Shown here: piece by piece, positions 21,650 to 56,570 of the stretch
Numbering within the stretch: the first letter of the stretch is position 1
How the letters are laid out: each line of letters opens with the position of its first letter
DNA from: a virus
IMG/VR virus record: IMGVR_UViG_3300009104_000024
Coordinates: 1-59,728 of that record
Length of the DNA: 59,728 nucleotides
Direction: 5' to 3' (one strand)
Notes under the pieces: model-generated
What the model was told of the DNA's origin: nothing
Databases searched by the model: none
Seen by the model: only the letters and a program-made list of their open reading frames with translations
Made by a program: the position numbers and the translations under genes

Positions 21650-21658
21650 GAGAATGAT

Positions 21659-22003: not shown

Positions 22004-22234
22004 ATGGCAATAAAATTAAAATTAGTTTTAAACTGGTTTGTAGATTTATTTAAAACCAGATACAAAATAACAGTATCTTTTAATAAAGAATATGGAGATG
22101 CTGATGATAAAATTTATATAACAAAAAAAATTATTACTAAAAAAGAAAAACATTTAAAGTTTAAAGATGAAAATAATAATTTAATTGAATATAGAAGTGC
22201 ATCAGGTCTTAATTATATTATAGAGGATGTGTAA
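22004..22234 (+). CDS. Small conserved phage protein (76 aa)
   Basis: A basic, beta-rich protein whose second half, DKIYITKKIITKKEKHLKFK then ENNNLIEYRSASGLNYIIEDV, matches a short family I remember from marine phages, of unknown function. It begins immediately after the preceding stop and ends in a TAATG overlap with the inner spanin gene, so it is translated with the lysis genes. Confidence 0.6.
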   Translation: MAIKLKLVLNWFVDLFKTRYKITVSFNKEYGDADDKIYITKKIITKKEKHLKFKDENNNLIEYRSASGLNYIIEDV

Positions 22235-31373: not shown

Positions 31374-31374
31374 T

Positions 31375-32829
31375 ATGGCAAATTTAGTACAATTAGCAAA
31401 TGAATTAGAGTATGTGCCTAAAATGCAATTGGCAGAAATGGCTCAAGACCCTAATAATAGATTTCCACAATACTTAGTCTTGTCAGAAATACAAAGACGA
31501 ACTTTAAATGAAAGGGCTTATGCAGCAGCACAACCTCAACCTACTACTACAGTAGCAGAAGAAGTGGTGCAAAATTTTGTGCAGCCCAAGGGTTTGCAAG
31601 CAGGTATACCTTCTGAATCAGCTCCAACTGATGCTTTCTCTTCAGAGTCTATGGGTATGCCTGCCTCTGCTCCTATGCAACAACCAATGCAACCTCCTAT
31701 GGCTATGGCTTCTGGTGGTTTAACTGGTTATGCCAATCAAGGTAGAACTGCTTTGCCTGGAGTTTTACCAAGTTTAACTCCATATGCAGCATCTGAAGCC
31801 GAAGAATACGAAGAAGATGCTAATTCGTTAAAAGAAAGTTTTAAAAATTCCTTTCTTATGGATGCGTTAGTAAATTACATGATGCAGCAGCCTGCAGTTT
31901 CGTCAAGTCTTGATGCAACCATGGCTCTTCATAATATTAAAAAAGATGTTGAAGAATCTGATTATTCAGGACCTACAGGTGCTCAAATTGGAGGAGGTTT
32001 ACTTGCATTAGCAAGTGTAATACCTCATACAAGAAGGATTAAAGCAGCTGGGAAGTGGGGGAAAAATTTATATGAAAAAACAATAAAACCTTTTATGAAA
32101 AAACGATATGGAGCACAACCTGCATCATACCAATACACATCAGGTGTTAATCCTATTGTTGGCTCACAGGTTGCTGGATATACACCTAAAATGAGTGCTT
32201 TGAGAAAAACATTATTAGGAACAGGAGAAGGTAGATTTATTTCTTCAGCACTTCCTATAACGGCTGGCGGATATCTTATGTCAGGTTATAACCCTTTCAG
32301 CAGTGAAACAGGAGAAAATAAAGAACAAACTGAACTGACAAAAGAACAAAAAGATTATATAAAGATGTTGCAAGAAATAGAGTTAGCTAATGCAAAAGCC
32401 TCGCAAGAAAAATCTAAAAAAGGTTTAGATGGTGCTTTTAGTCCTACTGACCTTATACAATTAGGTGGTACTGTTATGGGTGCTAGAAATATAAGTGAGT
32501 TAGGACAAGGTATAGCTGGTGTAGCTGGTATAGCTTCTGAAAGAAAAACTAGAGCAGAAGAAGTTGAAATAAATAAAAGACTTAGAGAAGCACAAATAAG
32601 TCAATTAGAAACAGAGACAGCTTTATTGCCAGATAAACAACTTGCTGACGAAATAGAAGGTGTTACTGCTGCTATTAAACAGGCAGAGGAAGGTGGTGCT
32701 GATGAAGAAAGAATTGCTGAATTAAGACAATATTTACAATATTTACTACAACAACAAGCTATGGCTCGTGGCTATAATCCACAAGCTATGTCTGGCACAA
32801 ATCAAAGTCTTATAGCTTCATATACTTAA
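31375..32829 (+). CDS. Internal virion protein with phage-conserved N-terminal domain
   Basis: Start chosen at the ATG after GGCGGAGGATAAT; an earlier in-frame ATG lies inside the previous gene. The N-terminal ANELEYVPKMQLAEMAQDPN, then RFPQYLVLSEIQRR, is a widespread domain of phage internal or tail proteins. Residues 100-125 contain MASGGLTGYANQGR, echoing motifs in the 1310-residue protein. A hydrophobic stretch near 200-215 (AQIGGGLLALASVIPH) may insert in a membrane; the C-terminal third is a coiled coil. It is 484 residues and lies directly before the giant gene. Confidence 0.55.
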   Translation: MANLVQLANELEYVPKMQLAEMAQDPNNRFPQYLVLSEIQRRTLNERAYAAAQPQPTTTVAEEVVQNFVQPKGLQAGIPSESAPTDAFSSESMGMPASAPMQQPMQPPMAMASGGLTGYANQGRTALPGVLPSLTPYAASEAEEYEEDANSLKESFKNSFLMDALVNYMMQQPAVSSSLDATMALHNIKKDVEESDYSGPTGAQIGGGLLALASVIPHTRRIKAAGKWGKNLYEKTIKPFMKKRYGAQPASYQYTSGVNPIVGSQVAGYTPKMSALRKTLLGTGEGRFISSALPITAGGYLMSGYNPFSSETGENKEQTELTKEQKDYIKMLQEIELANAKASQEKSKKGLDGAFSPTDLIQLGGTVMGARNISELGQGIAGVAGIASERKTRAEEVEINKRLREAQISQLETETALLPDKQLADEIEGVTAAIKQAEEGGADEERIAELRQYLQYLLQQQAMARGYNPQAMSGTNQSLIASYT

Positions 32830-32830
32830 T

Positions 32831-35800
32831 ATGCAAAAAGTTAATCTGCCTGACGGAAGAACATTAAAAATTCCTAACGATTTATCTGCTGAAAAGCGAG
32901 ATGAGTTAGCTAATGCAGTTAAAGCAGAATATAACATTGACATTAATGAAGGTTCTTTAGGTGAATGGTTAATAGATAAACCTAAATCAGTAGTTAGAGG
33001 ATTATCGCAAATGATACCTACAGGAGTAAAAGGTATTGCTGGTTTAACATTAGGAAGCGATAGCGATATAGTTAAAGGCATATCTGATTATCAAAGATAT
33101 ATTGCTACAGAATCGCCATTAGCATCTGACCCTAAATATAGAGATACATTTGGAACAAAACTTTCTGAAGGTGCTGGTTCATTAATTGGTTTTGGTGGAC
33201 TTTCGTATGCAGGTAGAAGATTAGCAGCTAAGGGTGTATTGAGTGATAAAGCAGGTCGTTTTGGTGTTCCTGGTTCATTAGCTGTACCTATGGGCATGGG
33301 TGAACAAGTAGATAGATTGGAGCAATCTAGAGCGTTGGGAGAAGAATCACCAGGTTTTTTAGCTGAAAAAACAGCCATTCTTGCTGGTGGTGTTATAGGT
33401 TTAAGTGAATTAGCACCTTTAGAAAGATTGTTTAGAGGCATTCCCAAAAATGCTTTAAAGAATCCTACAGTACAACAGTTACTTAATACACGATTAAGGT
33501 CAGCGATAGCAACAGGAACTGCTGAAGCTATTCAAGAAGCTGGAGCTGGTGTATTACAAAACTTAACAGCAGCAGGATTATATAGTGATGAAATACCTAT
33601 ATTTGATAGTGCATTAGAAGAGTTTACTATTGGTGGCATTTTAGGAGCAAGTGCTGATTTACTTGTTAATAGTCTTGCCAACAGAAGAAGTATTAGCAGT
33701 CAGCAATTAAGGGATGCAGAAACGAAAGCTAGAGACAATAGAACTAGTCTTCAATCACAAGATAAATTTGCTAGAGCACAAGAGCAAGGAATGGTTGAAG
33801 AGTATCAAGAACCTATTATAAAAGAAAAACCTGAAATAGATGTTCCAGCTATTGTTGATGTAGCTCCACCTGATTTAGGAGTAATAGAAAATCCTGATGG
33901 TCAATTTTCAGTTGTTGATTATAACGACTTAGAAAATCCTATACTAAGCTCACACGCTACCGAAGTTGATGCTCTATTAGAAAAAAATAATCAACAAACA
34001 AATTACGAAAGGAAAGTTTTACAAGTACAAGTTGATAATGACACATACATGATGGGAATGCCTGATAGCGATTCAGCTAAAACATTAGGTAGAACTGTTC
34101 TTGACCCTAACATTACGCAAATAAATTTATCTACTTTAATAGGATATGATTCTTCTATTTCAGAAGATTTAAAAAAAGAATTAAATAAAGAAAAATCTGC
34201 CACATATCCAGCACAGCCATATAGGCAGATGCTTGAAAATAAAAGAAAGAATTTAGAAAAAACTGCTAAATATTTAGAAAGTAAAGGTTTAGATTTAAAA
34301 AGTAGTTTTTCAATGCCTGAAGCTAAAAAAGTTTTAAAGCCTAAAGACTATAATCTAATGTTAGAAAGTTTTGCTAATCATGCTTTTACTGCTTCTGAAA
34401 AAGCAGGTGAACCTTCTATAAGAGAAGATAAATTAGATGTAACAATAAAGAATATTAAAGCTATTGCTGAATCTAAAAATATAGAATTAGACTTTAAAGA
34501 CCCAGCAGTTCGTTATGCAGCAAAACAATGGACAGGTTTTGAAGATATACCTAAAACAAGAAACAGAGGTGCTAAAGAACTTTTCTTAGCCAGAATACAT
34601 TCTCTTCCTGCATTTAATAGTAAAACTAAATTTCCTGATTTTAGACCTAGAGCTTACACAGGTGTAGACATGGCTAACTTTGTGGCTTCTGCACAAGACA
34701 TACAATTTACTGATGCTGACTTATTGGTAGCTGGTCCTGAAAGTATTAGAAATAAACCAGAAAATGTTAAACAATTTTTAAATGATTTAATTGAAAGTGG
34801 TAGAGCTAAAAAAATAAAAAACACAAATAAATATGAATTAACTGATGACTTTGAATACACAGTCGCCAGAAGACAAGAAGGGTTTAATGAAACACCAGAT
34901 GAATTTCGTGCAAGATTAGAAAGAGATAGGTCATTAGGTAAAAATAAATTATCTGATGAAGCTATAGATAGTCTTGTTGCGTCTGAAGAAGTAAGGCAAG
35001 AAAAGGTATTGCCACCAAAAGAAATTGAGAAAAAACTTATAGACTTTAATGAAACAATTGAAGAAGGTCGTACAAATAAATTTGCTAAAGAGTTAAGGAA
35101 AAAACTAAATAAAGTAGGATTAAGAGACACAGGTATAGTTGTTAGTAATGATATTTTATCTACTACTACATTAGCCGAAACTGAAACTGGACAAATAATA
35201 TTTGACCCTAGAAAAACTAGAGAAACTGCTACAGAAGGTGCAGTAGAAGGAGAATACGATAGAGATACAGACATTATTTTCTTATCGCTTAACTCTGTAA
35301 ATCCTGATGGCACAGCTACTGATGAACAAATACTACAAAGGTTAGATAAGATTCTTGACCATGAAATGATTCATGCGTTTAGAAAGAAAGATTTAATTAC
35401 TGAAAAGGAATATCAATATTTAAGAAACGAAGTTAAACGTAAAAAAGTTCCTACTGAATATGATGCTTCCAGCAAGAATGAAACTTTTTACACTAGAAGT
35501 CAAAGAATTAATAGTGGCATGGTACGACAAGCCACATCAGAAGGTAGGGCAAAAGAAGAAATAGAAGAATTTTTAGTAGAAGAAGCTATAGCTGAAATGT
35601 ATAGAGCCAGGGAGTTCAAACCTGTTACACCAAAATCTAAAGGCATATTAAATAGAATAGTTGAGTTCTTTAAATCTATGGGTCAAGCCATGCGTGTATC
35701 AGGCTACAGAGATTCTTCTGAAATATTTGCTGATATAGAAAGAGGTAAAGTAGGAGCTAGAGAAAGAGGACAAATACGAACCTTGCAAGAGCTAGATAAA

Positions 35801-38800
35801 ATATCTATGGCTAGAGAACAAGGTATTGTTGGTGGGTTAGGCATAACGCCTTCTGCTGTGCCTGAAGAACCTCGTGGTGAGGATAAATTAGATACTTCTG
35901 ACCCTCAATCAATAGCAGATGAATGGGGTGAAGGTGTTTTAATTACTCCAACTGTATCTTTTAATGATGTTAAATCAGATACAGACCCTATAACAGGTGT
36001 TACGTTGCCTTTGGAAGCTAGACAAAGAGGGGGTTTATACAATAAATGGGAATTAACACCAGAAGAATATGAAGCTGATAGAAAACAAATTTTAGATGAA
36101 TTTTATAGACCAACTGGTATTGGTGATGGAATTGAAAATATTAAAAGTATAGAAGTATTAAAGTGGCTTAGTAAAAATGGACCAACAGAAGATTATAGAG
36201 TTATTGCCAATAGACTATTAGTTCAACAAAGAAAATTAAAAAGAATAGTTGGCATTGAGGGATACTTTGCAATATTTAATGATGAACACGGAGGAAAACA
36301 AAGATTTATTGGTAAAGGTACGGATTACCAAAGTTTTCTTGGTGTTTCATATGCACCTTTTTTAAATGATGGTAGTTATAATGTTAAAGATTATAATCCT
36401 TATGGCGATAGCAAATTAGTACAACAAGTATATTTAAAAGATACCTCTTACACATCTTCACCAGGTCATAATGGTGTAAGTTTTGATACTATGTTGCACG
36501 AATTAGTGCATCAAACTACACAAGCTGCTACTAATTTTTATAGAGGTAGTAGAGCAACTGAACAATCTAAAAAACTTGTAAAAGATTTAGAAGAAGTTAG
36601 AAAAGAATTAATAAAAGAAATTGAAAAAAGAACTGACACTAAAGGTTCTATTGTTGAGGGTCAATATGTCAATGAAGATGCTGAAAATAAATTAAAGAGT
36701 GAATTTGGACAAGACGGAGCAGCAAAAATAGTATATGCAGCAAGTAAAATACAAGAAACTTTAGCAGTTGGATTTACTAATAGATATGCTCAAGACTTTA
36801 TGGATAGTATTCCATATAAAGGAACTAAAAAAACTTTATGGGATAAGTTTACTGAATCAATAAGAAAGCTATTAAGTTTACCTGCTAAAACTAATAGTTT
36901 ATTTTCTGAATTTTTAAGGATAAGTGGAAAATTAACAAATTTATCTAACGCACAATTAGAAGAACTAAATAGAGTTGGTGCTGATTATGATTATGGTCCA
37001 CCTGTTGCTAGCCTTGAAATGTCCGACCCTTCTATAGAATCAGAACTTTCTGATTTAAGAAGAGAACTATATGATGCAGAAAGTTTAGAGTCTGCCGATA
37101 GAGGTTATGTAGATGTAGAGGTAGGCAATCGTAATATGAGAAGAGTACAAAATATAAGAAATAAAATTGAAAGACTTGAAGAACAATTAAAACGAGAAGC
37201 AGAATTAAAACAACCAGTCACACCAGAACAGTTGCCTTTATTTAGTAGAACTCAAAAAGATGAGAAAAAAATAAGAACTATAGCTAGAGAAAATAGAAAA
37301 AGATTAAAGGAAGAATACAAAAATGATCCTGATGCTGTAGATGAAATTATTAAAGAATTTGAAGGCGAAGAATTATTTAGTGATGGTAGTGGTTTTATAG
37401 AAGGAATTACTACAAATAGAGGATATATGGATGACATTCCCTTGTCTTTTTCTTCTGAAAGATTATCTAAAAAAGTATTAGAAGATTATGGTTATGAAGA
37501 AATATTTGAAGGAGAAATGTCATCAGAGTTAAGAGATAAAGATAATCAACAAAATTATTATGTAGATTTAGGACAGAATAAATTTAGAGTTTACTTTAAT
37601 CGTTATGGTAATAAAAGAAACCAAGCGACTATTACTAATCCTACTTTAGATGAGTTAATGAATGAATCATGGTTTGAAAAAGAACGTAGGTCTTCTGACA
37701 TTCCTTTATTTAGTAGAGGACCTAGAGATGAATCGTCAGGTCATTTAGCTGATTATGTGCCTGCAGAATATGGTCCACCTGCACATCAACTAGATATAGT
37801 ATATGGCGATGAAAAAACAAAAGATGGTTATTATCCAGTTAGTTATGGTTTTACATATCCTAAAACTTCTCCAGATTATAGAACAAGAGAATTTACAGTT
37901 TATAGCACAGCTAGAACACCACTAGAACAACAAGAAGAGCGTGAGTTTATAAATAAACTTATGGAAATAAGAGGCAATCCAAATGCAGAAATAACTATGT
38001 ATCAAGCTGCACCACAAAGAGATTTAAGAGAAGGAGATTTAATAACTCCATTTTTAAGTGAAGCTGAAGCTCTTGTAGAAGATTCTAAAGTTACACAACA
38101 AGAAATTAGAGAAGCAGATAGAGCTAGAAGAAGGCAAGAACAGATAGATAAAAAAGGTGCTGTAGATTTACAACAAGAAAGATTGTTTAATCAAATGGAA
38201 GGAATATCAGATATTCTTGGTAGACCTGAAGTTACTCCATCAACAATACATACTTTTAAATTAAAAGCAGGAGATGTTCGTTGGGATGGTAATAATGGTT
38301 GGGCAAGATGGGGTTACTTCCCAAGAATAAAAGCTGTAGAAGATTTACCTTTATTTAGTAGAGCTGCCACAGATACTAAGCCTCCATATATGGACTTTAA
38401 TCGTAAACAGATTAGGAATTTTAGTAGTAATAAAGTTGGTTTTTATGATGGAGTAGAAATACCTTTAACTCATGTTGCACGAATGCGAGTTGAAGATTTT
38501 TTAAAACTTACTACAGCCAATCAAGAGGTAATTGATAATATAATAACAGGAGGTCCAACAGTTGCTTTATCTTCAGAGCCTATGGGCTTACTTCCAGCTT
38601 CTATAAGAAATCCTGATGCTATATTTGACTCAGAAATAGCAGATACTGCAATAATTCCTTCATTACCAAATTTAGAAATTAGAGGAAATGGTCAAGTAAT
38701 TAGCCATGAAGGCAGACATAGAGTTGCATTAATAGGACAAGGAGGTGGTAGAACTGTTCCTGTATTTATAAATTTTCCTGAAGGTAATGTAGAACAAAAT

Positions 38801-41800
38801 ATACCTAATCCTAGTGGTCAAACTTTACAAGAACAAGGTGTTACTTTTTTAAGAAATCAGGAATTTAATAACTTTACTGTTCCTATAAATAGGTTAGGAG
38901 AAATTGCACCTTTACATAGAGATAGTGCCCAAACTAAAGATAAATTAGATTATGCAGTAGAGATTGCTAGTCAGCCTGACTTACTTGCACCCTCTGGAAA
39001 TATACCTTTATTTTCTAGGCAATCTAAAACACCTTCAATAAAAGAACTTCCTGGAGAAGTTTCTGAGTATCGTGATAATTACAATATAACAGATACAGAA
39101 TTACTAAATGCTATAGAAGCTACAGAAATGAGCAGAAAATCAGGAACAAGAGAAAATCCTGGTCAGTTAGATACTACTATAGTAGAAATATTTGAAAACA
39201 ATCCCAACCTTTTAGAAGCTAGTAAAAACTTTCTTAGAAAGTTTACTAATAAAAAAGGTAACTTAATTGTATACAGAGCTTTAAATATACCTGCCTCTAT
39301 GCGTATAAAAAACTATGGGCAGTTTCCTCAAGATATTTACGCAAGTGCAACTATAGACCATAGAGAAGCTAAACAAATAGCAAGTAGTGTAGAAATAAGG
39401 TCAAGAGCTAAAGAAGAAGCACAATCAGAAATACTTAGATTTGAAGTGCCAATGGATAGAGTAAAAGCTTATGTTCCATCTTTAATAGTGGCTGGTAGAG
39501 AGCGATTAATAGAGATGAAAGAACAAGAATTTATTGATGCAGGGATAGAAAGTGAAATGGATGAAGACTTTAATCCTGATGAATATAATGACTACACTAG
39601 AGAACAATACATAGAAGAATATGAAAATGATTTAGATGCTTCTATAGATGAAGCTGAAGTTTTAGTTGACTTACGAGGAATCAAACCAACTTATCAGTAC
39701 ACACCTGGTAGTGGTATAACAGGTAGAGAACCATCTATAACTAGAGATATACCTTTATTCTCAAGAGCCAGAAGATTTACAGGTGAAGCTAATACACAAG
39801 AAAAAGTAGCATTACAAAAGTCTACAGAAATAATTGAAGATTTTGTAAAGAAAACTCCTAGAGGTGAAATACCTTTATACAATACAAATGCCTCTGATGT
39901 TGCTTTAAAAGCTGCGTATGACTATATAAATGACCCTAGTGCTCCTACTATAAATGAACTTCCTAATTACTCTAGAGTTGAAAAAGAAATACCTGAAGAT
40001 TTACAAGGTGTAGTTAATAGAGGTGGGTATGTTGCTCCAAGGAAGCCTTGGTATGAAAGATTAATTAGTGATGTTTCTGACCCTGTAACTAATATTAGAA
40101 AGTTTTTTAAAGATACAAGACAAAACTATATTGATAAGTTAGATAAAGTAGAAAAGAAAATAGCACAAGGAAGTGAAGAGTTTGAAGAAGTAAGACTTTT
40201 AAATAATATAGCCGACACCTCTGCTATAGCTGCATTAAGAATGGCTGATAAAGCTAGAGGTATATTTCAAGGTATGCTTACAAGAGGATTTGCTACAGAT
40301 GTTATTGACGGAGAAGCTGCATTAACAACTACTGAAGAACTAGAAATAGATACAGTATATAACCCATACATTGATGGCGATACAGGTACTGGTGGTTTAT
40401 TACAAATTACTGCTCCTTTATTTTCTGACCCATTAGTAGATTTAGAAGGAATATTTGGAACATATGCCAAATTAAAAAGAGTTCAAGGATTTCAAAAACA
40501 AAATAGACAAGTTGAATCCCCTTTTACACAACAAGATTTAGAATTTATAAATAATATTGAAGCTAACTATCAAGTTGTTGTTGAGGTATATAACAACTAT
40601 CAAAAATGGAACAATAAATTAGTAGACTTTGCACAAGCTAAAGGCTTATTAAATGAAGCACAAGCTACAAAATGGAGAGAAGAATCAACTTACTATCCTT
40701 TTTATAGAGATATGGTTGAAGAAGAGGGTATAACTGCACCAAGAATAGGTGGTGGTTCTTTACCTAATAACCCATTAAATTTAAAACTTAAAGGTTCTGA
40801 AGCAGAAATAAATGTTTCTCCATTAGAAGCTATAGCAAGAAACTCTTTGTCTATTCTTACTGCTTCCATGAAAAATGACGGAGCAACAAAGTTAATAGAA
40901 AGTTTAGCAATTATGGGTGAAGCAGAATACATCACCCCACAACAATTAAAAAATAAACAAGGTGCAAAAACTATATTTGTTTTTGAAAATGGATTTAAAA
41001 AACACTACAACATAGAAGACCCTGATTTATTCCATAGTATCAGAGCATTAGGTGGAGCAGAAGTTGGATTTATAACTAAACTTTTAGCTATGCCAGCTAC
41101 GTTATTAAGAGATACAGTAACTCGTGACCCTGGATTTATAGCAGTAAACTTACTTAGAGATACGCTATCTGCAACTGTAACATCAGGTGTTAATTTATCA
41201 TCACCTTTTACAGGTGGTGATGGATTTGTGCCAATGATAGATACCATTAAAAATATGTTTGGCGACATGACAGACTTAGAAAAGTTTGGTGTTATTGGTG
41301 GATATGATTTCGCTAATGACGAAGGTGATGTTGTTGACTATATGGCACGAATAAGAAGACAACAAGGTCTTACGGCTAACAATGGTATGTCAGCAGAAAA
41401 AGCTTTCTTTTATGTTTGGGATGGTCTTGGTGGACTAACAACAAAATCTGATGGAGCTACTCGTAAAGGTGTGTTTGATGCAGTTTATAAACGCATGAAA
41501 AACACTATTGATGAAAGAACAGGTGAAGTTTACACAGATGCAGCAGCACAATCAGAAGCAGCTTTTCAATCCTTAGAGGTTATAAACTTTGGTCGTAGAG
41601 GACTATCACCAATGTTTAGAGTTATTACGTCTGCAATACCTTTTTTAAACGCTAGAATACAAGGTCTTGACGTTATATACAGGTCATTTAGAGGAACGTA
41701 TTCAGCACAAGATAAACTACAAGAAGGTGAAACTTTAGATGAATTAAAGAACAGAATAATGCGAAGAACTGCATTGAGAGGTGGAACTATTATGGCTTCT

Positions 41801-42781
41801 ACCTTAATTTACTATCTATTAGTTAGTGATACAGAAGAATACAAGGAAGCCAAGAGAGAACTAAGAGATGACAATTGGTTGATACCAACTCCATTTGATT
41901 ACACATTAAAAGTTCCTATTCCTTTTGAGATTGGAATGATGTTTAAGGCACTACCTGAGAGGTTCATAGACCTCGTTCTAGGAGAGAAAGTGTTAGGACT
42001 AAAGGAATCAGTAGAGAAAGACCCTATCGAGTCTATAAGGAGGCAATTAGGAACTTCTGCAAACATACCTTTCTTATCAGGTGACATCAGCATACAAGCA
42101 TTAAAGCCTATTTTTGAAGCTACAATTAATAGAAATTCTTTTACAGGTCAAGAAATTGTTCCTTACTATAAGCTGAAGAGAGAGCCAGGTTATCAAGCAT
42201 CTCCACAAACTAATGAACTAGCTAGAGTTATCGGTGAAGCCTTAAATATTTCACCAACTAAAATTGAGCACGTTATCAATGGATATACAGGAACACTCGG
42301 AGGTTATGTGTTGGATATTGTGGATTCACTAACTAGAACTGCAACAGGTTCTCCATACATACCAAATAATATTTTTAGTAACCCAACTAACTTTGCCCAA
42401 TACCCATTAATTAAAAGACTGGTCGTGGATAATAAAAAAATGGGAGGGTTGCAACAACAGTTCTATGAACTTAGAGGTGAGGTAGATAGAGCCGTTACGA
42501 CTATGAATAGTCTTAAACAAGAAAAAAGGTTTGATGAACTCAGAGCTTATAAGTCTGATGTAAAAGGCTTAATGAATGTCAAAGGCAGAGTAAGAGCAAT
42601 GGAAAGATACTTGGACAATTGGAGGAAGAGAAGAGATAGATTGATGCGTAGGACTGATATATCGGTTATGGTTAAAGCAGAAATGATTCAAGACTTAGAA
42701 GCAGAAAGAGATAAGCGTTTAGCGTTTATACCTGAACTAAGGAAGAAAGCTAACGTGCCTATCCTCCAGGGAGGACTGTAA
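32831..42781 (+). CDS. Giant polyvalent internal virion protein (3316 aa)
   Basis: Modular protein probably injected with DNA. N-terminus KVNLPDGRTLKIPNDLSAEK is a common internal-protein start. Zincin 1: HEMIH at 844-848 with later EEAIAEMY. Zincin 2: HELVH at 1223-1227. Then come five [LI]PLFSR motifs (1468, 1624, 1839, 2058 and 2307). Between them lie a degenerate ADP-ribosyltransferase-like module (Q1725, W1818), a ParB-like module (HEGRHR at 1959-1964) and an ART-like module with R2149, S2172-T2174 and E2274/E2276. Residues about 2650-3316 are helical and resemble the LPD38-type polyvalent domain. It overlaps the convergent minus-strand gene by 45 bp. Confidence 0.75.
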   Translation: MQKVNLPDGRTLKIPNDLSAEKRDELANAVKAEYNIDINEGSLGEWLIDKPKSVVRGLSQMIPTGVKGIAGLTLGSDSDIVKGISDYQRYIATESPLASDPKYRDTFGTKLSEGAGSLIGFGGLSYAGRRLAAKGVLSDKAGRFGVPGSLAVPMGMGEQVDRLEQSRALGEESPGFLAEKTAILAGGVIGLSELAPLERLFRGIPKNALKNPTVQQLLNTRLRSAIATGTAEAIQEAGAGVLQNLTAAGLYSDEIPIFDSALEEFTIGGILGASADLLVNSLANRRSISSQQLRDAETKARDNRTSLQSQDKFARAQEQGMVEEYQEPIIKEKPEIDVPAIVDVAPPDLGVIENPDGQFSVVDYNDLENPILSSHATEVDALLEKNNQQTNYERKVLQVQVDNDTYMMGMPDSDSAKTLGRTVLDPNITQINLSTLIGYDSSISEDLKKELNKEKSATYPAQPYRQMLENKRKNLEKTAKYLESKGLDLKSSFSMPEAKKVLKPKDYNLMLESFANHAFTASEKAGEPSIREDKLDVTIKNIKAIAESKNIELDFKDPAVRYAAKQWTGFEDIPKTRNRGAKELFLARIHSLPAFNSKTKFPDFRPRAYTGVDMANFVASAQDIQFTDADLLVAGPESIRNKPENVKQFLNDLIESGRAKKIKNTNKYELTDDFEYTVARRQEGFNETPDEFRARLERDRSLGKNKLSDEAIDSLVASEEVRQEKVLPPKEIEKKLIDFNETIEEGRTNKFAKELRKKLNKVGLRDTGIVVSNDILSTTTLAETETGQIIFDPRKTRETATEGAVEGEYDRDTDIIFLSLNSVNPDGTATDEQILQRLDKILDHEMIHAFRKKDLITEKEYQYLRNEVKRKKVPTEYDASSKNETFYTRSQRINSGMVRQATSEGRAKEEIEEFLVEEAIAEMYRAREFKPVTPKSKGILNRIVEFFKSMGQAMRVSGYRDSSEIFADIERGKVGARERGQIRTLQELDKISMAREQGIVGGLGITPSAVPEEPRGEDKLDTSDPQSIADEWGEGVLITPTVSFNDVKSDTDPITGVTLPLEARQRGGLYNKWELTPEEYEADRKQILDEFYRPTGIGDGIENIKSIEVLKWLSKNGPTEDYRVIANRLLVQQRKLKRIVGIEGYFAIFNDEHGGKQRFIGKGTDYQSFLGVSYAPFLNDGSYNVKDYNPYGDSKLVQQVYLKDTSYTSSPGHNGVSFDTMLHELVHQTTQAATNFYRGSRATEQSKKLVKDLEEVRKELIKEIEKRTDTKGSIVEGQYVNEDAENKLKSEFGQDGAAKIVYAASKIQETLAVGFTNRYAQDFMDSIPYKGTKKTLWDKFTESIRKLLSLPAKTNSLFSEFLRISGKLTNLSNAQLEELNRVGADYDYGPPVASLEMSDPSIESELSDLRRELYDAESLESADRGYVDVEVGNRNMRRVQNIRNKIERLEEQLKREAELKQPVTPEQLPLFSRTQKDEKKIRTIARENRKRLKEEYKNDPDAVDEIIKEFEGEELFSDGSGFIEGITTNRGYMDDIPLSFSSERLSKKVLEDYGYEEIFEGEMSSELRDKDNQQNYYVDLGQNKFRVYFNRYGNKRNQATITNPTLDELMNESWFEKERRSSDIPLFSRGPRDESSGHLADYVPAEYGPPAHQLDIVYGDEKTKDGYYPVSYGFTYPKTSPDYRTREFTVYSTARTPLEQQEEREFINKLMEIRGNPNAEITMYQAAPQRDLREGDLITPFLSEAEALVEDSKVTQQEIREADRARRRQEQIDKKGAVDLQQERLFNQMEGISDILGRPEVTPSTIHTFKLKAGDVRWDGNNGWARWGYFPRIKAVEDLPLFSRAATDTKPPYMDFNRKQIRNFSSNKVGFYDGVEIPLTHVARMRVEDFLKLTTANQEVIDNIITGGPTVALSSEPMGLLPASIRNPDAIFDSEIADTAIIPSLPNLEIRGNGQVISHEGRHRVALIGQGGGRTVPVFINFPEGNVEQNIPNPSGQTLQEQGVTFLRNQEFNNFTVPINRLGEIAPLHRDSAQTKDKLDYAVEIASQPDLLAPSGNIPLFSRQSKTPSIKELPGEVSEYRDNYNITDTELLNAIEATEMSRKSGTRENPGQLDTTIVEIFENNPNLLEASKNFLRKFTNKKGNLIVYRALNIPASMRIKNYGQFPQDIYASATIDHREAKQIASSVEIRSRAKEEAQSEILRFEVPMDRVKAYVPSLIVAGRERLIEMKEQEFIDAGIESEMDEDFNPDEYNDYTREQYIEEYENDLDASIDEAEVLVDLRGIKPTYQYTPGSGITGREPSITRDIPLFSRARRFTGEANTQEKVALQKSTEIIEDFVKKTPRGEIPLYNTNASDVALKAAYDYINDPSAPTINELPNYSRVEKEIPEDLQGVVNRGGYVAPRKPWYERLISDVSDPVTNIRKFFKDTRQNYIDKLDKVEKKIAQGSEEFEEVRLLNNIADTSAIAALRMADKARGIFQGMLTRGFATDVIDGEAALTTTEELEIDTVYNPYIDGDTGTGGLLQITAPLFSDPLVDLEGIFGTYAKLKRVQGFQKQNRQVESPFTQQDLEFINNIEANYQVVVEVYNNYQKWNNKLVDFAQAKGLLNEAQATKWREESTYYPFYRDMVEEEGITAPRIGGGSLPNNPLNLKLKGSEAEINVSPLEAIARNSLSILTASMKNDGATKLIESLAIMGEAEYITPQQLKNKQGAKTIFVFENGFKKHYNIEDPDLFHSIRALGGAEVGFITKLLAMPATLLRDTVTRDPGFIAVNLLRDTLSATVTSGVNLSSPFTGGDGFVPMIDTIKNMFGDMTDLEKFGVIGGYDFANDEGDVVDYMARIRRQQGLTANNGMSAEKAFFYVWDGLGGLTTKSDGATRKGVFDAVYKRMKNTIDERTGEVYTDAAAQSEAAFQSLEVINFGRRGLSPMFRVITSAIPFLNARIQGLDVIYRSFRGTYSAQDKLQEGETLDELKNRIMRRTALRGGTIMASTLIYYLLVSDTEEYKEAKRELRDDNWLIPTPFDYTLKVPIPFEIGMMFKALPERFIDLVLGEKVLGLKESVEKDPIESIRRQLGTSANIPFLSGDISIQALKPIFEATINRNSFTGQEIVPYYKLKREPGYQASPQTNELARVIGEALNISPTKIEHVINGYTGTLGGYVLDIVDSLTRTATGSPYIPNNIFSNPTNFAQYPLIKRLVVDNKKMGGLQQQFYELRGEVDRAVTTMNSLKQEKRFDELRAYKSDVKGLMNVKGRVRAMERYLDNWRKRRDRLMRRTDISVMVKAEMIQDLEAERDKRLAFIPELRKKANVPILQGGL
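37232..39766 (+). repeat. Five [LI]PLFSR boundary motifs in the giant protein
   Basis: The hexapeptide starts at nt 37232, 37700, 38345, 39002 and 39749 (residues 1468, 1624, 1839, 2058, 2307), with spacings of 156, 215, 219 and 249 residues. The first three share CCTTTATTTAGTAGA. The last two encode the same residues with other codons (TCTAGG, TCAAGA), so the peptide rather than the DNA is conserved. Each is preceded by an acidic or short flexible stretch and followed by polar residues, like protease-accessible linkers. Confidence 0.85.
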
Positions 42782-48880: not shown

Positions 48881-48904
48881 TAAATAACTATAATGGAGAA
48901 AAGT

Positions 48905-50683
48905 ATGCTAAGTCAAGAGCAACAGGAAAAAAATGATATAAGGAATCATATCAATCACAATCCTAAAACTAACAATCAAGCACACGGACAATACAAAATA
49001 ACTTGTCCTAATTGTCAGAGAGAAAGAACAAAGAACAAAGGTGACACACCTTTATCAGTTAATATAAATTCAGAGACTATTGTTTATCATTGTCATCATT
49101 GTGGCATTCAAGGAGCAATGTCTAAATCCCAGGGAGCAACAATGAAAGTAGTTAAAACAGAATCAAAACCAGTAAAAGAAATATCAGTTCCTCCAATAGA
49201 TAAGAAAGGAAAGGCTTCTCAATGGCTGAAAGATAGAGGAATTAGTGTAGAAGTAGCTGAAATGTCAGGTTGCACTCTAACAGAGAAAAATAAAAAACCA
49301 GTCATAGGATTTACATTTGAAAAAGATAGCAAAGCGATAGCAGTTAAGTGGAGAACTTGTAACGGAGAAAAAAGTTATTGGTGGGATAATTCCGCTTCTC
49401 GTCTATGGGGTCGTCAAGTTTACAATGACAGTTTACCTACAGTTGAATCAACAATAGTGATTACAGAAGGCGAATTAGATATGCTTGCAATCAAGGAAGC
49501 GTTTAAAGACCATGCCAACATAGATGTATATAGCGTTCCCAATGGAGCACCAAACAAGATAACAGAGAACAAGATAGACCCTTCTGAAGAAGGAAGATTT
49601 AAGTATATATGGGAAGATAGACACCTTTTTGAAGGAGTAGATAGGGTAGTTTTAGCTACAGATGACGATAAGAACGGAGAGATATTGGCTTCAGAGTTGT
49701 CCAGGAGACTCAATAAAGCTAGATGTTATATTGTTGATTATAAAGGGCATAAGGATGCGAATGAGTTATTAGTTGAGTCAGATGCAGAAACAGTCAGACA
49801 TCAGGTTTTAAATGCAGAGCCTGTTCCTCTTCACGGATTAAACAACATAGACTTTTATGCAGATGAATTTCAAAGTTTGTATGACCAAGGACACCCCAAA
49901 GGCATATCAACAGGGTTTGATTCAGTTGATAAGCTATTTTCTTTGCAAACAGGCTACTTAACTGTAGTTACAGGCTATCCTGGTGACGGAAAGAGTATAT
50001 TTTTAGACAATATTATTATAAATGCCTGTAAAAATTATGGTTGGAAGGCTACCTATTGCAGTTTTGAAAAACCTCCTACGCTTCATGCCGTTCAATTGGC
50101 TCAAATCATAACTTCTAAGCCATTTTTTTCTGGACTGAACCAAAGAATGACACAGGAAGAGAAAGACTATGCACAGAAATTTATAAACGACCATATACTT
50201 TTTCAAGACTATCAAGACGGAGGTATGCCTACGATAGAATCTATCTTAGAAAAGAATGCACAGAGTATTATGAGGACAGGTAGTAGAATACTTGTCATAG
50301 ACCCCTTTAACTTTGTTCAAACAAACGATAAGTATGCTTTAGAAACAGATATGGTTAGTGATATGCTTACGAAAGTTCAGCTTCATTGTAAGCAATATGA
50401 TTGTCTTTGTTTCTTTGTCGCACACCCCACGAAACCACAGATGCGTGACGGAAAAAAGAATATTGTCACAGGAGTTGATGTTGCAAAGTCTATGGCATTC
50501 TTCTCTAAATGTGACACAGGGTTGACAGTTTACAGAGGAGAAGGCACAGTAGATATACATTGTTGGAAAGCAAGGTGGCAATGGCAATCTTCTTTAGGAG
50601 TTGCTAGCTTAACTTTTAACCCTGTTAATAACAGATATGCAGAAGCACAACAAATCAAAGACGACTACGATTGGGAGTTCTGA
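48905..50683 (+). CDS. Primase-helicase (T7 gp4-like)
   Basis: Start chosen at ATG five bases after GGAGA; an ATG four codons earlier lacks a ribosome site. 592 residues. Zinc ribbon: C34, C37, C63, C66. TOPRIM primase: VITEGELDML (E188/E190) and ATDDDKNGE (D253-D255). RecA-type hexameric helicase: GYPGDGKS Walker A (357-364), RILVIDPFNF Walker B (D466), VAHPTK (H507). It synthesises primers and unwinds the fork. No polymerase gene is visible, so it must serve the host polymerase, unlike T7. Confidence 0.92.
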   Translation: MLSQEQQEKNDIRNHINHNPKTNNQAHGQYKITCPNCQRERTKNKGDTPLSVNINSETIVYHCHHCGIQGAMSKSQGATMKVVKTESKPVKEISVPPIDKKGKASQWLKDRGISVEVAEMSGCTLTEKNKKPVIGFTFEKDSKAIAVKWRTCNGEKSYWWDNSASRLWGRQVYNDSLPTVESTIVITEGELDMLAIKEAFKDHANIDVYSVPNGAPNKITENKIDPSEEGRFKYIWEDRHLFEGVDRVVLATDDDKNGEILASELSRRLNKARCYIVDYKGHKDANELLVESDAETVRHQVLNAEPVPLHGLNNIDFYADEFQSLYDQGHPKGISTGFDSVDKLFSLQTGYLTVVTGYPGDGKSIFLDNIIINACKNYGWKATYCSFEKPPTLHAVQLAQIITSKPFFSGLNQRMTQEEKDYAQKFINDHILFQDYQDGGMPTIESILEKNAQSIMRTGSRILVIDPFNFVQTNDKYALETDMVSDMLTKVQLHCKQYDCLCFFVAHPTKPQMRDGKKNIVTGVDVAKSMAFFSKCDTGLTVYRGEGTVDIHCWKARWQWQSSLGVASLTFNPVNNRYAEAQQIKDDYDWEF

Positions 50684-51185
50684 TACACCAATTCATGTTA
50701 ATGATGTTGGCAGTCCACATCTGCACAAACATCACGAAGTAGTAATAAGAGTATTCAATAATACTAGAGTTGGCAGAGCAGTTGTTCTTGACCAACATTT
50801 AATAGATGTTTTGTTTCATAAAGATTTATTAGATACTAGACAACACAATGTCTGCGATAAGTATTTAGGAATAATTTCTAAATCAGGATGTTTTGCCCAA
50901 TCAAGTTCTGCCGTCAGCGAAAAAATATTTACGACTGGTAGCAGGAAAACAGGCACTATACCCCAAGCCTGTATTCTTCTTGGTGTGCAAAAGAACATAA
51001 AAAATATATGTGGAAATAAAAAAGAAGGTATTTTTTGGAAGTTGATGACTGAAAATCCAAATAGAATCAATCACTTAGAGTTAAGTGTAATTAAAGAATG
51101 TGCTGATGCACTTCTAACTTATTGGTATATCAGTCCTGAAAGTCCAGTTTCTTTGTTTCAGCAATCCCTGTTAAACCCTTCGTAA
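50637..51185 (+). CDS. Hypothetical protein following primase (up to 182 aa)
   Basis: Overlaps the primase end by 47 nt; the exact start is uncertain. The stretch GSPHLHKHHEVVIRVFNNTR, VLFHKDLLDTRQHNVCDKYL and a basic end resembles a protein found after primase or helicase genes in other podoviruses (no known function). Its 3' end overlaps the convergent gene at 51130 by 56 bp. The His-rich start suggests nucleic-acid or metal binding. Confidence 0.5.
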   Translation: MQKHNKSKTTTIGSSDTPIHVNDVGSPHLHKHHEVVIRVFNNTRVGRAVVLDQHLIDVLFHKDLLDTRQHNVCDKYLGIISKSGCFAQSSSAVSEKIFTTGSRKTGTIPQACILLGVQKNIKNICGNKKEGIFWKLMTENPNRINHLELSVIKECADALLTYWYISPESPVSLFQQSLLNPS

Positions 51186-51453
51186 TAGGAGTAGTTTCAC
51201 TTGTAATACTGCCTGAATAAATCTCCTTACCTATCTGTTCAGACATATCTTCTTCTAATCCTACTGCTTCTTTTGACTCTTTCATAAGCCTGTTCACTTC
51301 AGAAATTTGTTGAAGCGACAAGCCTTTCTCTTCAGCCAGGGTATGTATCATATGAATAATCTGCTTGTTTAAAGAACGACTTTCTTTTTTTGCCAGTTCG
51401 TGTGCAAGGTCGTATGTTTCTTGCGAACATCTAATGAATAGACTTTTGCTCAT
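51130..51453 (-). CDS. Ribbon-helix-helix-like protein (107 aa)
   Basis: The N-terminus KSLFIRCSQETYDLAHELAK then KESRSLNKQIIHMIHTLAEE fits an Arc/MetJ-type ribbon-helix-helix DNA-binding fold (beta strand, two helices). An acidic helical tail follows. GAGGAT precedes the ATG. A phage transcription regulator is plausible, and it could be what binds the palindromic operators elsewhere. The overlap with the opposite-strand gene at its 3' end is odd but tolerated by both. Confidence 0.6.
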   Translation of the reverse strand: MSKSLFIRCSQETYDLAHELAKKESRSLNKQIIHMIHTLAEEKGLSLQQISEVNRLMKESKEAVGLEEDMSEQIGKEIYSGSITSETTPITKGLTGIAETKKLDFQD

Positions 51454-51766: not shown

Positions 51767-51890
51767 TACATTATAGGCAAAATGCTATCAAATTGAAAGC
51801 CACATGAAAAATTCTCAGTAGCTCACATCCATACGGAAAAAAAATATTTATGCGACTGGTATTTTGAGCTACGCCAGTAAACTGCTTCTA

Positions 51891-51906
51891 CGTTTCATGT
51901 GAAACA
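51891..51906. other. parS-like palindrome
   Basis: CGTTTCATGTGAAACA. It matches the bacterial chromosomal parS consensus TGTTTCACGTGAAACA in 14 of 16 positions, with one central C to T change. Host ParB could bind it; no phage ParB or ParA is seen. Confidence 0.45.
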
Positions 51907-51908
51907 TA

Positions 51909-51931
51909 GACTATCTTAAACGACTATCTTA
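51909..51931. repeat. GACTATCTTA direct repeats, locus 1
   Basis: Two copies at 51909-51918 and 51922-51931 (13-bp period), directly after the parS-like site. The same decamer recurs at 57011-57036 and 59406-59458. Confidence 0.75.
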
Positions 51932-52014
51932 TACGATAAAAAAATGGATAAAAAAAAGGGATGAGTTCTAGGAAAACCCACCCCTTTTAACATCTACTAA
52001 CTAGACATGGAGGT

Positions 52015-52041
52015 TATCTTGTTCTAAGTCTTAACAAGATA
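52015..52041. repeat. Inverted repeat TATCTTGTT ... AACAAGATA
   Basis: Perfect 9-bp arms (52015-52023 and 52033-52041) around a 9-nt spacer. The TATCTTGTTCTA part recurs in the noncoding region upstream of terS (around 58782). A protein-binding site or structured RNA are both possible. Confidence 0.6.
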
Positions 52042-52078
52042 TAAATACTGTAATACTTTCGATTGCATAATGCAAGTG

Positions 52079-52110
52079 TTATCCACAAGTTATTCACACA
52101 GTTATCCACA
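52079..52110 (+). other. Three DnaA boxes in tandem
   Basis: TTATCCACA at 52079-52087, TTATTCACA at 52090-52098 and TTATCCACA at 52102-52110, all in the same orientation and 11-12 bp apart (about one helical turn). Two match the E. coli R1 box exactly and the third fits TTATNCACA. An AT-rich segment follows (52129-52145). Strong candidate for host DnaA-dependent initiation. Confidence 0.85.
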
Positions 52111-52293
52111 GGTTTTCCAGACTCATCCATAAAAATAAATATTCCTAGTTTTTTGCACGCCCACTATATCTTGTGTTGATTAGTTGAGAACACCACTAGA
52201 TATAGACGGAGGACTTCCTGCGACTGGGAAAATATTTCCCTGGGAGCTACAACAGCTCATCAAAACGTAGCAGTAGGTTAGGTTTCAGATTTC

Positions 52294-52319
52294 CTACAGG
52301 TAATTTTATCTACCTGTAG
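52294..52319. repeat. Hairpin CTACAGGTA / TACCTGTAG
   Basis: Perfect 9-bp inverted repeat (52294-52302 and 52311-52319) with an 8-nt spacer. A TTTTTT tract follows 6 nt later on the plus strand, so it may act as a weak plus-strand terminator. Confidence 0.55.
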
Positions 52320-52337
52320 TATTTGCTTTTTTCAGAC

Positions 52338-52385
52338 CAAAAAAAAAGGCAACAACCACTTATTAAAGTAGTTATTGCCTTATTT
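52338..52385 (-). terminator. Terminator of the minus-strand early unit
   Basis: On the minus strand a long stem, AAGGCAATAACTACTT against AAGTGGTTGTTGCCTT, with a TAAT loop, is followed by about nine T residues (A tract at 52339-52347 on plus). It ends transcription from 52427-52973 and protects the origin region. T-rich DNA on the other side makes it possibly bidirectional. Confidence 0.88.
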
Positions 52386-52426
52386 ATTTTAAAGTTAATT
52401 GTTATGAACCCATTGATGAATTTTAT

Positions 52427-53161: not shown

Positions 53162-54412
53162 CTATGCTACGAGACTATTCTTATCCACATAAATAACTTC
53201 ACCAAAAGGTAAATTATTAGAATAAGAACTTTCCTCCGTAACGCACCATATAACAGGAACTTCAGGCTGAACGTCAGCATCAACCAATCCGAATCCGTCT
53301 GTAAAATAAACGAATGCTTTTACATCCTGGACTTCATCCGAATAATCATTGAAGAGATTAAAAGGAGGATTAAATTCTGTTCCTCCTCCTCCTCTAGCTT
53401 CAAGTTTTACCTCTTCGCCCTGGTCAAGTTCATACACATCCCACCATTCACCATTAGAATTTTTTCTTACGACTGTATCGCAATAACAAACTCTAATTTT
53501 TTCTAAACCACACGATTCAGCCATTGAAATAATTTCAGTAGTGAATATGTTTAGTTCGTCTTGGTCAATTGAACAAGATGTATCTATGGCTATAGCTAAC
53601 TCACCTCCCTGGGAAGATTTAACTTTACTAGGTAAATATAAATTTCTCCAGGTATGACGTTTATTAGGTCTCGCCCACGTTCTATCGTCAGCCATAGAAC
53701 TTGAAAGAAAATCGCTTAACAGTTCATGCCAGTTAAAATTGATTTCCTGTAATTCTTGCATTCTGCGACCTATCGCAGAGCCTGAATCACTTCCTATAGA
53801 TTTCTCCAGTTTGTCAGCTTTAGATACTGCATTCCTGATTTCAGTTTGAAGATCAGACAATTCTGAATCACCTAAAGGTTTTCCTTCTTCGTCTTGAGCC
53901 TGTATGACTTCACCTACTGGCACAGGAAGTTCATCCCATTCAGTAGAGGAAACGTCTATCCCCTCACCTTCATGTCCTGTAATATCATCTACAGTATCTT
54001 GTAAAGAATCATCATCTTCTGCCAAAATTTGATACACCTTTTCAGCAGTCATACCTCTATATTTATTATCAAGTAAACCACCTTCAGGTAATTTCATTCC
54101 TAAATCCCACCTAAGATAAGCATTAATTATATAGTCAGTTGCGTAATTCCATAGAACGTGATGCCTACTACTTCCTTTTCGCAAGGGATGTTCCCATATG
54201 ACGTGGCTAGCTTCGTGAACTAAGACTGCTTGTAATTCCTTAACAGAAATACTTTTGACAAAATCTTTATTCCAAAAAATTCTTTGTCCGTCAGTAGCTA
54301 ACGTATCAAAAGAAGCATCTTCAACCAGTTCTAAGTTGAGCAACATTGAAGCCATACCAATATTACCCTTCATTAGTTTTGCTCTAGCTTTTATAAGTTT
54401 TTGTTCAGTCAT
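53162..54412 (-). CDS. VWA metallopeptidase-like protein
   Basis: Start at the ATG six bases after GGAGG; an ATG four codons earlier would bury that site. A 416-residue protein. A zincin HEASH motif (66-70, with HVIWEH) lies in the N-terminal half, followed by a helical and acidic middle, then a C-terminal von Willebrand A domain with a DTSCS MIDAS (277-281). This is the DUF2201-like 'metallopeptidase plus VWA' arrangement. VWA proteins of this type work with a MoxR AAA+ partner, which is encoded upstream at 55482-56570. N4-like phages carry comparable gene pairs. Confidence 0.75.
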   Translation of the reverse strand: MTEQKLIKARAKLMKGNIGMASMLLNLELVEDASFDTLATDGQRIFWNKDFVKSISVKELQAVLVHEASHVIWEHPLRKGSSRHHVLWNYATDYIINAYLRWDLGMKLPEGGLLDNKYRGMTAEKVYQILAEDDDSLQDTVDDITGHEGEGIDVSSTEWDELPVPVGEVIQAQDEEGKPLGDSELSDLQTEIRNAVSKADKLEKSIGSDSGSAIGRRMQELQEINFNWHELLSDFLSSSMADDRTWARPNKRHTWRNLYLPSKVKSSQGGELAIAIDTSCSIDQDELNIFTTEIISMAESCGLEKIRVCYCDTVVRKNSNGEWWDVYELDQGEEVKLEARGGGGTEFNPPFNLFNDYSDEVQDVKAFVYFTDGFGLVDADVQPEVPVIWCVTEESSYSNNLPFGEVIYVDKNSLVA

Positions 54413-55358
54413 CTTTACCTCCAAAAGCCTTATTAAAGAAACTTCCTTTAAGGTCTCCTACAGAACTTTCTAAATCATCTGCAACCTTCTTTCGTTTAGC
54501 TTCTCCCAATTCAGTTTCATCTCTAAGAGAATCATAAGAATTGATTGAGGCAAAAACAGAAACAAGACTTTGATGAGCATTAGATATGTCTGCATCATTC
54601 CCTAAAATGTCAGAGTTAATTGAGGGAAGCATATCAATAGACTGTTTTAATTTCTCAAAACTGGTCTTATGAAATGTTTCACCATTCTTTAACTTATCGA
54701 CAATATGATTTACTTGTTCAAGTAAAGCCTCAACAGTAACCTTAAAAACATTTCTTACATTGTTTGCAAGTCTGTTTTCAGTCTCTTGTTGAATGCTAGC
54801 TTTCATTTTGTCAGAGACATTTAAACGAATATCAGAAGATTTAGTTATGTCCTGAATTAGTTCTTTCTTAAAATCAAAAACAAATTTGCTTCTAAGTTTT
54901 TCAACGTCAGGATAATCTTCTTCATTAAATGCAGAGCCTAATTTTCTTTCAGCTACAGAAACAAAAGAATCATAATTTTCAAGAAAACTTTCTGCTTCCT
55001 CAAAAAAATCATCTTTAGCTTCTTGCATTTTCTCGTCTAGCAAATCTAATTGTGTACTTGGACACAATCTCCACCCACTAGTGCTAGTTGAATCAGAATC
55101 CGATTCACTATCGCTCCAGGGAACAGTTAAAGCATAATAGTATTCTCTACGAATCCTATTCGTTATACGTCTGAATATCTTATTAATATTCTCTCCGTAC
55201 ATATGCTTAGAAACGTGCAATGTTCTTTCATCTGCACCTACGTTACTTTCTAACCCTTCTCGTAAACTTTTATCTACCTTAATACCACTAGGATGTTTAA
55301 CAGTTAAACTAACCAGTAATGCTTGTTTAGATAAAAGGTTTTTATTATTTTTATTCAT
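54405..55358 (-). CDS. DUF3150-like coiled-coil protein (middle gene of AAA/VWA set)
   Basis: A 317-residue protein. It opens with ALLVSLTVKHPSGIKVDKSL, then a helical coiled-coil body (100-220) and a Ser/Asp-rich segment around 82-93. This resembles DUF3150-type proteins that sit between MoxR and VWA genes. GGAGGGT precedes the ATG in a leader shared with the gene at 58468. It overlaps the VWA gene by 8 nt. Possibly an adaptor or substrate of the AAA+ machine. Confidence 0.55.
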   Translation of the reverse strand: MNKNNKNLLSKQALLVSLTVKHPSGIKVDKSLREGLESNVGADERTLHVSKHMYGENINKIFRRITNRIRREYYYALTVPWSDSESDSDSTSTSGWRLCPSTQLDLLDEKMQEAKDDFFEEAESFLENYDSFVSVAERKLGSAFNEEDYPDVEKLRSKFVFDFKKELIQDITKSSDIRLNVSDKMKASIQQETENRLANNVRNVFKVTVEALLEQVNHIVDKLKNGETFHKTSFEKLKQSIDMLPSINSDILGNDADISNAHQSLVSVFASINSYDSLRDETELGEAKRKKVADDLESSVGDLKGSFFNKAFGGKDD

Positions 55359-55447
55359 AAACCCTCCAGTCTATATTATTAATAATCTGTTTCGCATGAC
55401 CCATAAATGAACAGGTCGCTCTTCAGTATGGTTAATTCCATATACAG

Positions 55448-55475
55448 AAAAAAACGGAGGGCATTTCTGCCCTCC
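55448..55475 (-). terminator. Terminator after the AAA+ gene
   Basis: GGAGGGC (55456-55462) pairs with GCCCTCC (55469-55475) around a 6-nt loop; on the minus strand it is followed by G and seven T residues. It separates the AAA+ gene from the DUF3150-like and VWA genes, which therefore need their own promoter or depend on read-through. Confidence 0.93.
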
Positions 55476-55481
55476 ATAATT

Positions 55482-56570
55482 TTATACCTCTAAGTCTTGA
55501 TGCTTAACTTTGAACTCATTGAAAGTTGTTGTTTCAACAAGTTCAGTTCTTGCATTGATTAGAGAACGAACAAAAAATACTTCGTATTCAGGAGTTGGAA
55601 ATTGCTCTATATATTTCAGAGCATTTTCAAAATAACTTTCAACCAAAGAATCGCTAACTTCTTTAATTACAGTTATCAGCGCAACGACTGTAGCAAAATA
55701 TATTCCGTTCTGTTTTTTCTTATCCTTAGCCTTTTCAGGAGAATCAATTTTCCCCTCACAAATTTTTTGCAAGTCAGGAACATCTTCTTTGAGTTGCAAG
55801 AAAGATGCAAATTCAATTGATGCAGTTTCGCCTACATTAATGTCTGCGAATTTCTGTATAAATGAATTTTCAGGATTAGTCTTTAAAGTGCTAGACAATC
55901 TTGTCCAGGAACGAGGGCAAGGCTGAGGAGCAATGACTTTAGGATCAAAAACATTCAACCAGTTAGGCTGATAATTTAAGAATCCTAAAATGTCAGGATG
56001 AACATCATTCTTGACTGCCCAATTGAACCAGTCGTTAGAATCGTGAACGAACTCAATCATTGCACACCTGGAATAGCAATGAGAAGGAATCTTATTAGAC
56101 CCCGCCCTATCGCTAGCCTTATTGGAAGCACAAACAATTACCCAATTACCTTTTCCATTTTCAGGAGTTGGTAATTCATAATCTCCTATTCTTTTCTCAT
56201 ACATAAGTTGAGATAGAACAGTTTGCATTGAATGGTGAGACTGCCCAAATTCATCCAGGAAAAGCATACCTTCTCCACTAACAGGAAGATTACCTAAAAA
56301 GGCTCTCTTCTGTTTGCCTTCCTCAATATAAGGAATGCCTGATAGGTCATAAGACTCATACAAACTACTTCTAAAATCTATCCAACCATATTCTTTTGCA
56401 GTTGGATTGACTTTATCTGTAACCACTTTTCTTCCTTCAGCCAAGATGTCTCGCACCTCTTCGACTATTGCAGACTTTCCAATACCAGTTCCTCCTAAAA
56501 GGAATGGCGTATTGTTAGCCTTTATTTCGCATTGCATCATATACAACGCTTCACTAGGTTTATATTTCAT
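55482..56570 (-). CDS. MoxR-type AAA+ ATPase
   Basis: A 362-residue ATPase with Walker A GGTGIGKS (26-33), Walker B MLFLDEFG (102-109), sensor 1 around VIVCASNKASDRAG and an Arg-finger-like YSRC. The order and length fit the MoxR/dynein-like group. MoxR proteins remodel partners through a VWA protein, which here is the third gene of the set. GGAGG ribosome site; promoter candidate just upstream. Confidence 0.82.
   Translation of the reverse strand: MKYKPSEALYMMQCEIKANNTPFLLGGTGIGKSAIVEEVRDILAEGRKVVTDKVNPTAKEYGWIDFRSSLYESYDLSGIPYIEEGKQKRAFLGNLPVSGEGMLFLDEFGQSHHSMQTVLSQLMYEKRIGDYELPTPENGKGNWVIVCASNKASDRAGSNKIPSHCYSRCAMIEFVHDSNDWFNWAVKNDVHPDILGFLNYQPNWLNVFDPKVIAPQPCPRSWTRLSSTLKTNPENSFIQKFADINVGETASIEFASFLQLKEDVPDLQKICEGKIDSPEKAKDKKKQNGIYFATVVALITVIKEVSDSLVESYFENALKYIEQFPTPEYEVFFVRSLINARTELVETTTFNEFKVKHQDLEV

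Follow-up and report, generated by a model that had tools for sequence, protein, structure and literature searches.

In the window, the whole stretch of 59,728 nucleotides analyzed here, the 660-nt gap at positions 51767 to 52426 appears to be a compact control region for host proteins, and we propose, at a probability of about 0.42, that replication starts here with the help of DnaA and is carried out by the host replisome. The gap is flanked by minus-strand ORFs and separates the primase-helicase module from another conserved operon. At its core is an array of DnaA boxes (Table 1), which we consider, from its conservation among relatives, to be a genuine, selected site for host DnaA, whose binding is predicted. 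The region points to a marine phage group seemingly dependent on the host replisome, for which the exact sites are given below.

Table 1. Features of the control region and of associated genes, in window coordinates.
Feature	Position	Strand	Sequence or description	Basis
Primase-helicase gene	48893-50683	+	Toprim, DnaB/Twinkle-like helicase	Family matches
Small Arc-like protein gene	51130-51453	-	Ribbon-helix-helix	phrog_228, E = 1.3e-4; 21 aligned members
parS-like palindrome	51891-51906		CGTTTCATGTGAAACA, 14/16 to TGTTTCACGTGAAACA (two mismatches)	Consensus from general knowledge
Predicted small RNA	51950-52046	-	~97 nt beyond the -10: two hairpins separated by an exposed ACCUCC, then an intrinsic terminator	
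Intrinsic terminator of small RNA	51954-51988	-		Terminator prediction
Block with linker ACCUCC and second hairpin	51990-52015	-	ACATCTACTAACTAGACATGGAGGTT (plus strand)	Invariant among close relatives
-10 element	52047-52052	-	TACAGT, 17 nt from -35	TATATT or TATAGT in most relatives
Palindrome holding the predicted -35	52063-52075		TTGCATAATGCAA, with TTGCAT of the minus-strand promoter	Conserved in near and distant relatives
DnaA box 1	52079-52087	+	TTATCCACA	Motif scan
DnaA box 2	52090-52098	+	TTATTCACA	Motif scan
DnaA box 3	52102-52110	+	TTATCCACA	Motif scan
Degenerate fourth DnaA-like box	52113-52121	+	TTTTCCAGA	Comparison of relatives' loci
Short AT-rich element, possible unwinding element	52130-52155		AAATATT-CCTAGT type	Conserved beside boxes in relatives
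Predicted tandem NrdR boxes	52161-52208		CCACTATATCTTGTGT (52161-52176) and CCACTAGATATAGACG (52193-52208), 16-bp spacer	Pair scoring
Terminator closing the minus-strand operon right of the region	52346-52381	-		Conserved stem
Genes for VWA-like protein, DUF3150-like protein, and MoxR-type ATPase	53162-56570	-	Ribosome sites match the small-RNA linker	Families

The three boxes of the array (52079 to 52110) are arranged head-to-tail, with box-to-box spacings of 11 and 12 bp that place them in helical phase. The original prediction had described three clustered DnaA boxes at helical-turn spacing in a noncoding gap of 660 nt, and this description proved exact. A first-order Markov model gives ~4e-6 such triples within 32 bp expected by chance per window. 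Single DnaA boxes are not enriched across the window and occur as frequently as chance predicts, which would suit a chance cluster in AT-rich noncoding DNA; this explanation is nevertheless refuted by the ~4e-6 expectation and by the conservation of phase and position in 20 distinct loci, and we regard it as highly improbable.

We then looked for relatives by scanning IMG/VR with the primase-helicase, which yielded 23 loci. Among those with a primase-helicase of at least 74% identity (L002 to L013), two to four boxes were found in 12/12 loci, 1.2 to 1.7 kb downstream of the helicase gene. The divergent array carriers L069, L071, L074, L076, and L079 came from a DNA pattern scan that demanded a DnaA box, and was thereby biased to box-bearing loci, and that also required box 1 to be next to the -35 palindrome. 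The phase of the array (0/11/22-23) is kept in nearly all of the 20 distinct related loci while the flanking sequence diverges, and it is shared even with relatives whose primase-helicases are 60 to 63% identical. L004/L064 has an intact fourth box (TTATTCACA) where the window has the degenerate TTTTCCAGA, and in many loci the AT-rich element adjoins a TTATCCACA box that is followed by GG.

AT-rich DNA next to the boxes had also been claimed, and this was borne out in part. A short element is present, and positions 52119 to 52150 are 75% AT versus 65% genome-wide, but the effect is modest, since a 28-nt dip in DNA stability at 52128 falls in the lowest 1.6% whereas over 50 nt the value is only at the 29th percentile. 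Base skew, which had been put forward as a check, indicates no origin at 52 kb: the fits of the strand-corrected skew were inconsistent and revealed no switch there, and a small phage genome may show none.

We evaluated the apparent lack of a DNA polymerase. Profiles of family A, B, and C polymerases had no match in the window, and no polymerase turned up when all likely genes above 300 aa, and many smaller ones, were compared with PHROGs and/or Pfam, in agreement with the original prediction; a search for family B_2 gave no match but was uninformative, as its control gave none either. PolA, a core gene of HTVC023P-type pelagiphages, was not found in the window, and none of the 23 relatives had a polA match in a search that does find polA in HTVC027P and HTVC023P. 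The cultured cyanophage Pag-Yong1 likewise gave no polA match. The lack of a recognizable polymerase, as judged by these profiles, is a trait of the lineage that is common to Pag-Yong1, and not the oddity of one phage. Any survey relying on polA as its marker gene would overlook this lineage.

A polymerase hidden by an incomplete genome, an escape that the original prediction had itself named, was ruled out because whole relatives with the same gene order run through both ends of the window. The genome is therefore essentially complete, with a TerS-TerL gap of 564 nt versus about 450 to 500 nt (448 to 497 nt) in relatives, and no recognizable initiator gene was found in it. Family matches confirmed the claimed primase-helicase and recombination enzymes (Sak annealing protein, exonuclease, and RusA) as well as the SSB-like protein, for which the match is weak. 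The large ORFs at 19328 to 21649, 25778 to 29710, and 31357 to 32829 had no usable family match. We rejected the first as the polymerase of the lineage, as G007 and G017 have no homologue of it, and we also rejected ORF 50637-51185 as a helicase loader, its AlphaFold model being of moderate quality (pLDDT 68) and without a fold match. The block at 18199 to 22234 includes a 773-aa ORF whose homologues were seen in G020 and were missing from G007 and G017; it looks as if a module of the tail region had been exchanged.

We propose that host DnaA would bind the phased boxes and open the adjacent AT-rich element, that the phage's own primase-helicase would be loaded, or would load itself, at the opened site, and that host polymerase III, put forward as the copier because the phage has no polymerase, would then replicate the genome. 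The phase of the array, its conservation, and the neighboring AT element keep it a good candidate for an origin. DnaA-dependent plasmid origins (P1 oriR, pSC101, and F) also have a few DnaA boxes beside AT-rich DNA, and they depend on a plasmid Rep protein together with iterons; in contrast, no Rep was recognized here, and a predicted small-RNA promoter abuts the boxes. Repeats of the AAATATTTACTGGT type were rejected as iterons, since they lie in the early regions of relatives and are only degenerate in the window. In the early region of G007, G020, and other relatives, AAATATTTACTGGT or ACCAGTAAATATTT is repeated, with many copies in gene gaps.

Several observations lower our confidence in an origin. 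The array is not kept throughout the relatives with the same replication module: it is absent from the related contigs G017, G020, G022, and G023, which themselves have no polA match. In this lineage, a DnaA origin therefore does not follow from the want of a polymerase, and, on these contigs, such an origin cannot be its universal answer to that lack. The contigs without polA and without the array mostly retain the remainder of the control region, and on the tree the presence of the array is patchy, in both deep branches. This patchiness weakens the claim and does not exclude it, since origins can turn over. In addition, what appear to be NrdR boxes occupy the place of the array beside the same palindrome in L014, L016, L018, and L020, which argues against an origin, and DnaA may be dispensable for the loading of a Twinkle-like primase-helicase. 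From the original proposal of an origin served by host DnaA and the host replisome, the conserved boxes and the missing polymerase stand, but the absence of the array from polA-less relatives counts against it, and neither the base skew nor the modest AT content clearly favors it.

The array abuts the -35 element of a predicted minus-strand promoter, followed by a small RNA whose strong terminator ends near 51950. The -10 element was missed by a simple consensus scan. Single-sequence folding of the RNA gave z-scores of -4.0 to -6.8, and the RNA folds well in 6/6 relatives tested. The first hairpin varies in sequence and keeps its fold, as seen in separate folds only of a poorly aligned region, and RNAalifold on a MAFFT alignment backs both the terminator and the hairpin preceding it, the second one, although just four pairs are changed on both sides. 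No Rfam family matched the RNA, and no tRNA was found. With a conserved promoter, a structured body, and an intrinsic terminator, all in prediction, it has the makings of a bacterial-type small RNA, and we consider it a probable small RNA gene. Its linker is complementary to the ribosome sites of DUF3150 and MoxR, over nine bases for MoxR in the window, with longer lineage-specific matches elsewhere (12 bases in L071, 10 in the L016/L017 lineage, and 11 in L018). The conserved element beside the array is a candidate for a new phage RNA, and a target for it is predicted. The conserved Arc-like protein encoded beside the region is a candidate binder of the palindrome TTGCATAATGCAA.

About 50 bp beyond the DnaA array starts a putative pair of NrdR boxes, which score 14/16 and 11/16 and make up the top-scoring pair of the genome over spacings of 20 to 44 bp. 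This score was reached by 0/2000 simulated 661-nt stretches and by 1/60 simulated whole genomes. Taken alone, the pair in the window is suggestive, and it is conservation that convinces: most relatives have it, with a 15- or 16-bp spacer, or one of 25 bp in L018 and G017. NrdR binds pairs with spacers of 14 to 17 or 24 to 27 bp, and other spacings are bound about hundredfold more weakly (PMC12051234). With two 16-bp palindromes and spacers inside the tolerated ranges, the pairs resemble bacterial NrdR operators; unlike them, they occur in a phage without a reductase gene. No gene for a large subunit of ribonucleotide reductase was found in the window, and the pair does not precede any reductase gene there. 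In a motif scan of bacterial genomes, the NrdR motif precedes ribonucleotide reductase genes, as 7/8 Pfam-checked neighboring proteins, chosen from 14 bacterial loci examined, are reductases. In distant relatives that have no DnaA boxes, the pair lies directly beside the palindrome of the small-RNA promoter.

A parS-like palindrome lies 190 bp left of the array, and at two mismatches or fewer from TGTTTCACGTGAAACA, which we take to be the parS consensus, chance would yield 0.025 sites in 60 kb. Palindromic variants are found in related loci at the same or another place, and the site is absent or weak in several. HTVC027P (MN698241, position 16412) has a parS-like CGTTTCACGTGAAACA and HTVC023P (MN698239, position 29137) a parS-like palindrome, both in gene gaps. 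No phage-encoded ParB was found in the window, and host ParB may be involved at these sites.

The original prediction had read the boxes as an origin only, but they also lie directly upstream of the conserved small-RNA promoter, so that another role is possible. Host DnaA, with NrdR beside it, could switch this promoter, so that the phage would sense the replication and nucleotide state of its host, with ACCUCC pairing to the DUF3150 and MoxR ribosome sites. Such an upstream regulatory site is possible, if somewhat unlikely. It accounts for the 3-bp distance that separates box 1 from the -35 palindrome, both here and in loci found without that constraint, for the replacement of the array by NrdR boxes at that place in distant relatives, and for the well-folded RNA. 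It also fits the linkers, which match the ribosome sites of their own lineage better (score of 85) than those of other lineages in shuffled pairs (mean of 69, p = 0.0005), although the lineages are related and the match could instead reflect a lineage-wide style of ribosome site. Promoter and RNA are, however, predicted, some NrdR boxes lie elsewhere than at the promoter (L071:1284 and L069:2414), and three or four tightly phased boxes exceed what most single promoters use.

Alternatively, multiplying phage genomes may act as a decoy that titrates host DnaA and NrdR, perhaps also ParB, so that host initiation would be slowed, host reductase derepressed, and deoxynucleoside triphosphates (dNTPs) raised. 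For a phage carrying no reductase gene, the NrdR boxes would offer a possible direct route to increase the host dNTP supply, and their NrdR-required spacer, the seven bacterial loci in which the same motif precedes a reductase gene, and the parS-like site all favor this explanation. So does HTVC027P, which also has no nrd genes and raises host nrdA 3.1- to 8.9-fold and nrdB 2.5- to 5.8-fold (PMC12753301), but this phage has no clear NrdR pair, so its induction of nrd needs another cause. Moreover, one array per genome would probably titrate only late, at high copy number, and the parS-like site is missing or weak in several relatives; overall, we regard titration as quite unlikely. Small-RNA control and titration are serious competitors of the origin reading, and all three can coexist. 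It is conceivable, though fairly unlikely, that the region is a multi-input hub that lets a phage with no polymerase read or capture the host regulators DnaA, NrdR, and perhaps ParB and couple them to a small RNA controlling the MoxR/VWA operon.

DnaA-box origins and NrdR operators are already-known kinds of site. In a limited literature search, we found no phage in which the two are combined with a small RNA, and no direct precedent for phage DnaA origins, phage NrdR boxes, or pelagiphage parS. The Planktothrix phage Pag-Yong1 (OL906435) has its genes laid out as in the phage studied here, with a giant polyvalent protein, minus-strand recombination genes, a plus-strand primase-helicase, VWA/ATPase genes, TerL, portal, GroES, and capsid. 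It differs in sequence (45% identity for TerL and 30% for the primase-helicase), and no DnaA array, NrdR pair, or parS-like site was found in it. The Pelagibacter phages HTVC027P and HTVC023P share terminases of 52 to 58% identity, similarly ordered GroES and capsid genes, and intergenic parS-like palindromes, whereas in them polA is accompanied by a primase and a helicase that are separate from each other, and they have no DnaA array.

The large polyvalent protein of the window (32831 to 42781) has 3316 aa and contains an LPD38 domain. In HTVC010P (KC465898), no DNA polymerase is annotated in the first 34 kb. In the polA-bearing relative 023Pt_psg01 (MW574966, position 17718), a near-perfect NrdR-like box (ACACAACATCTAGTGT) is located in the gap before TerL.
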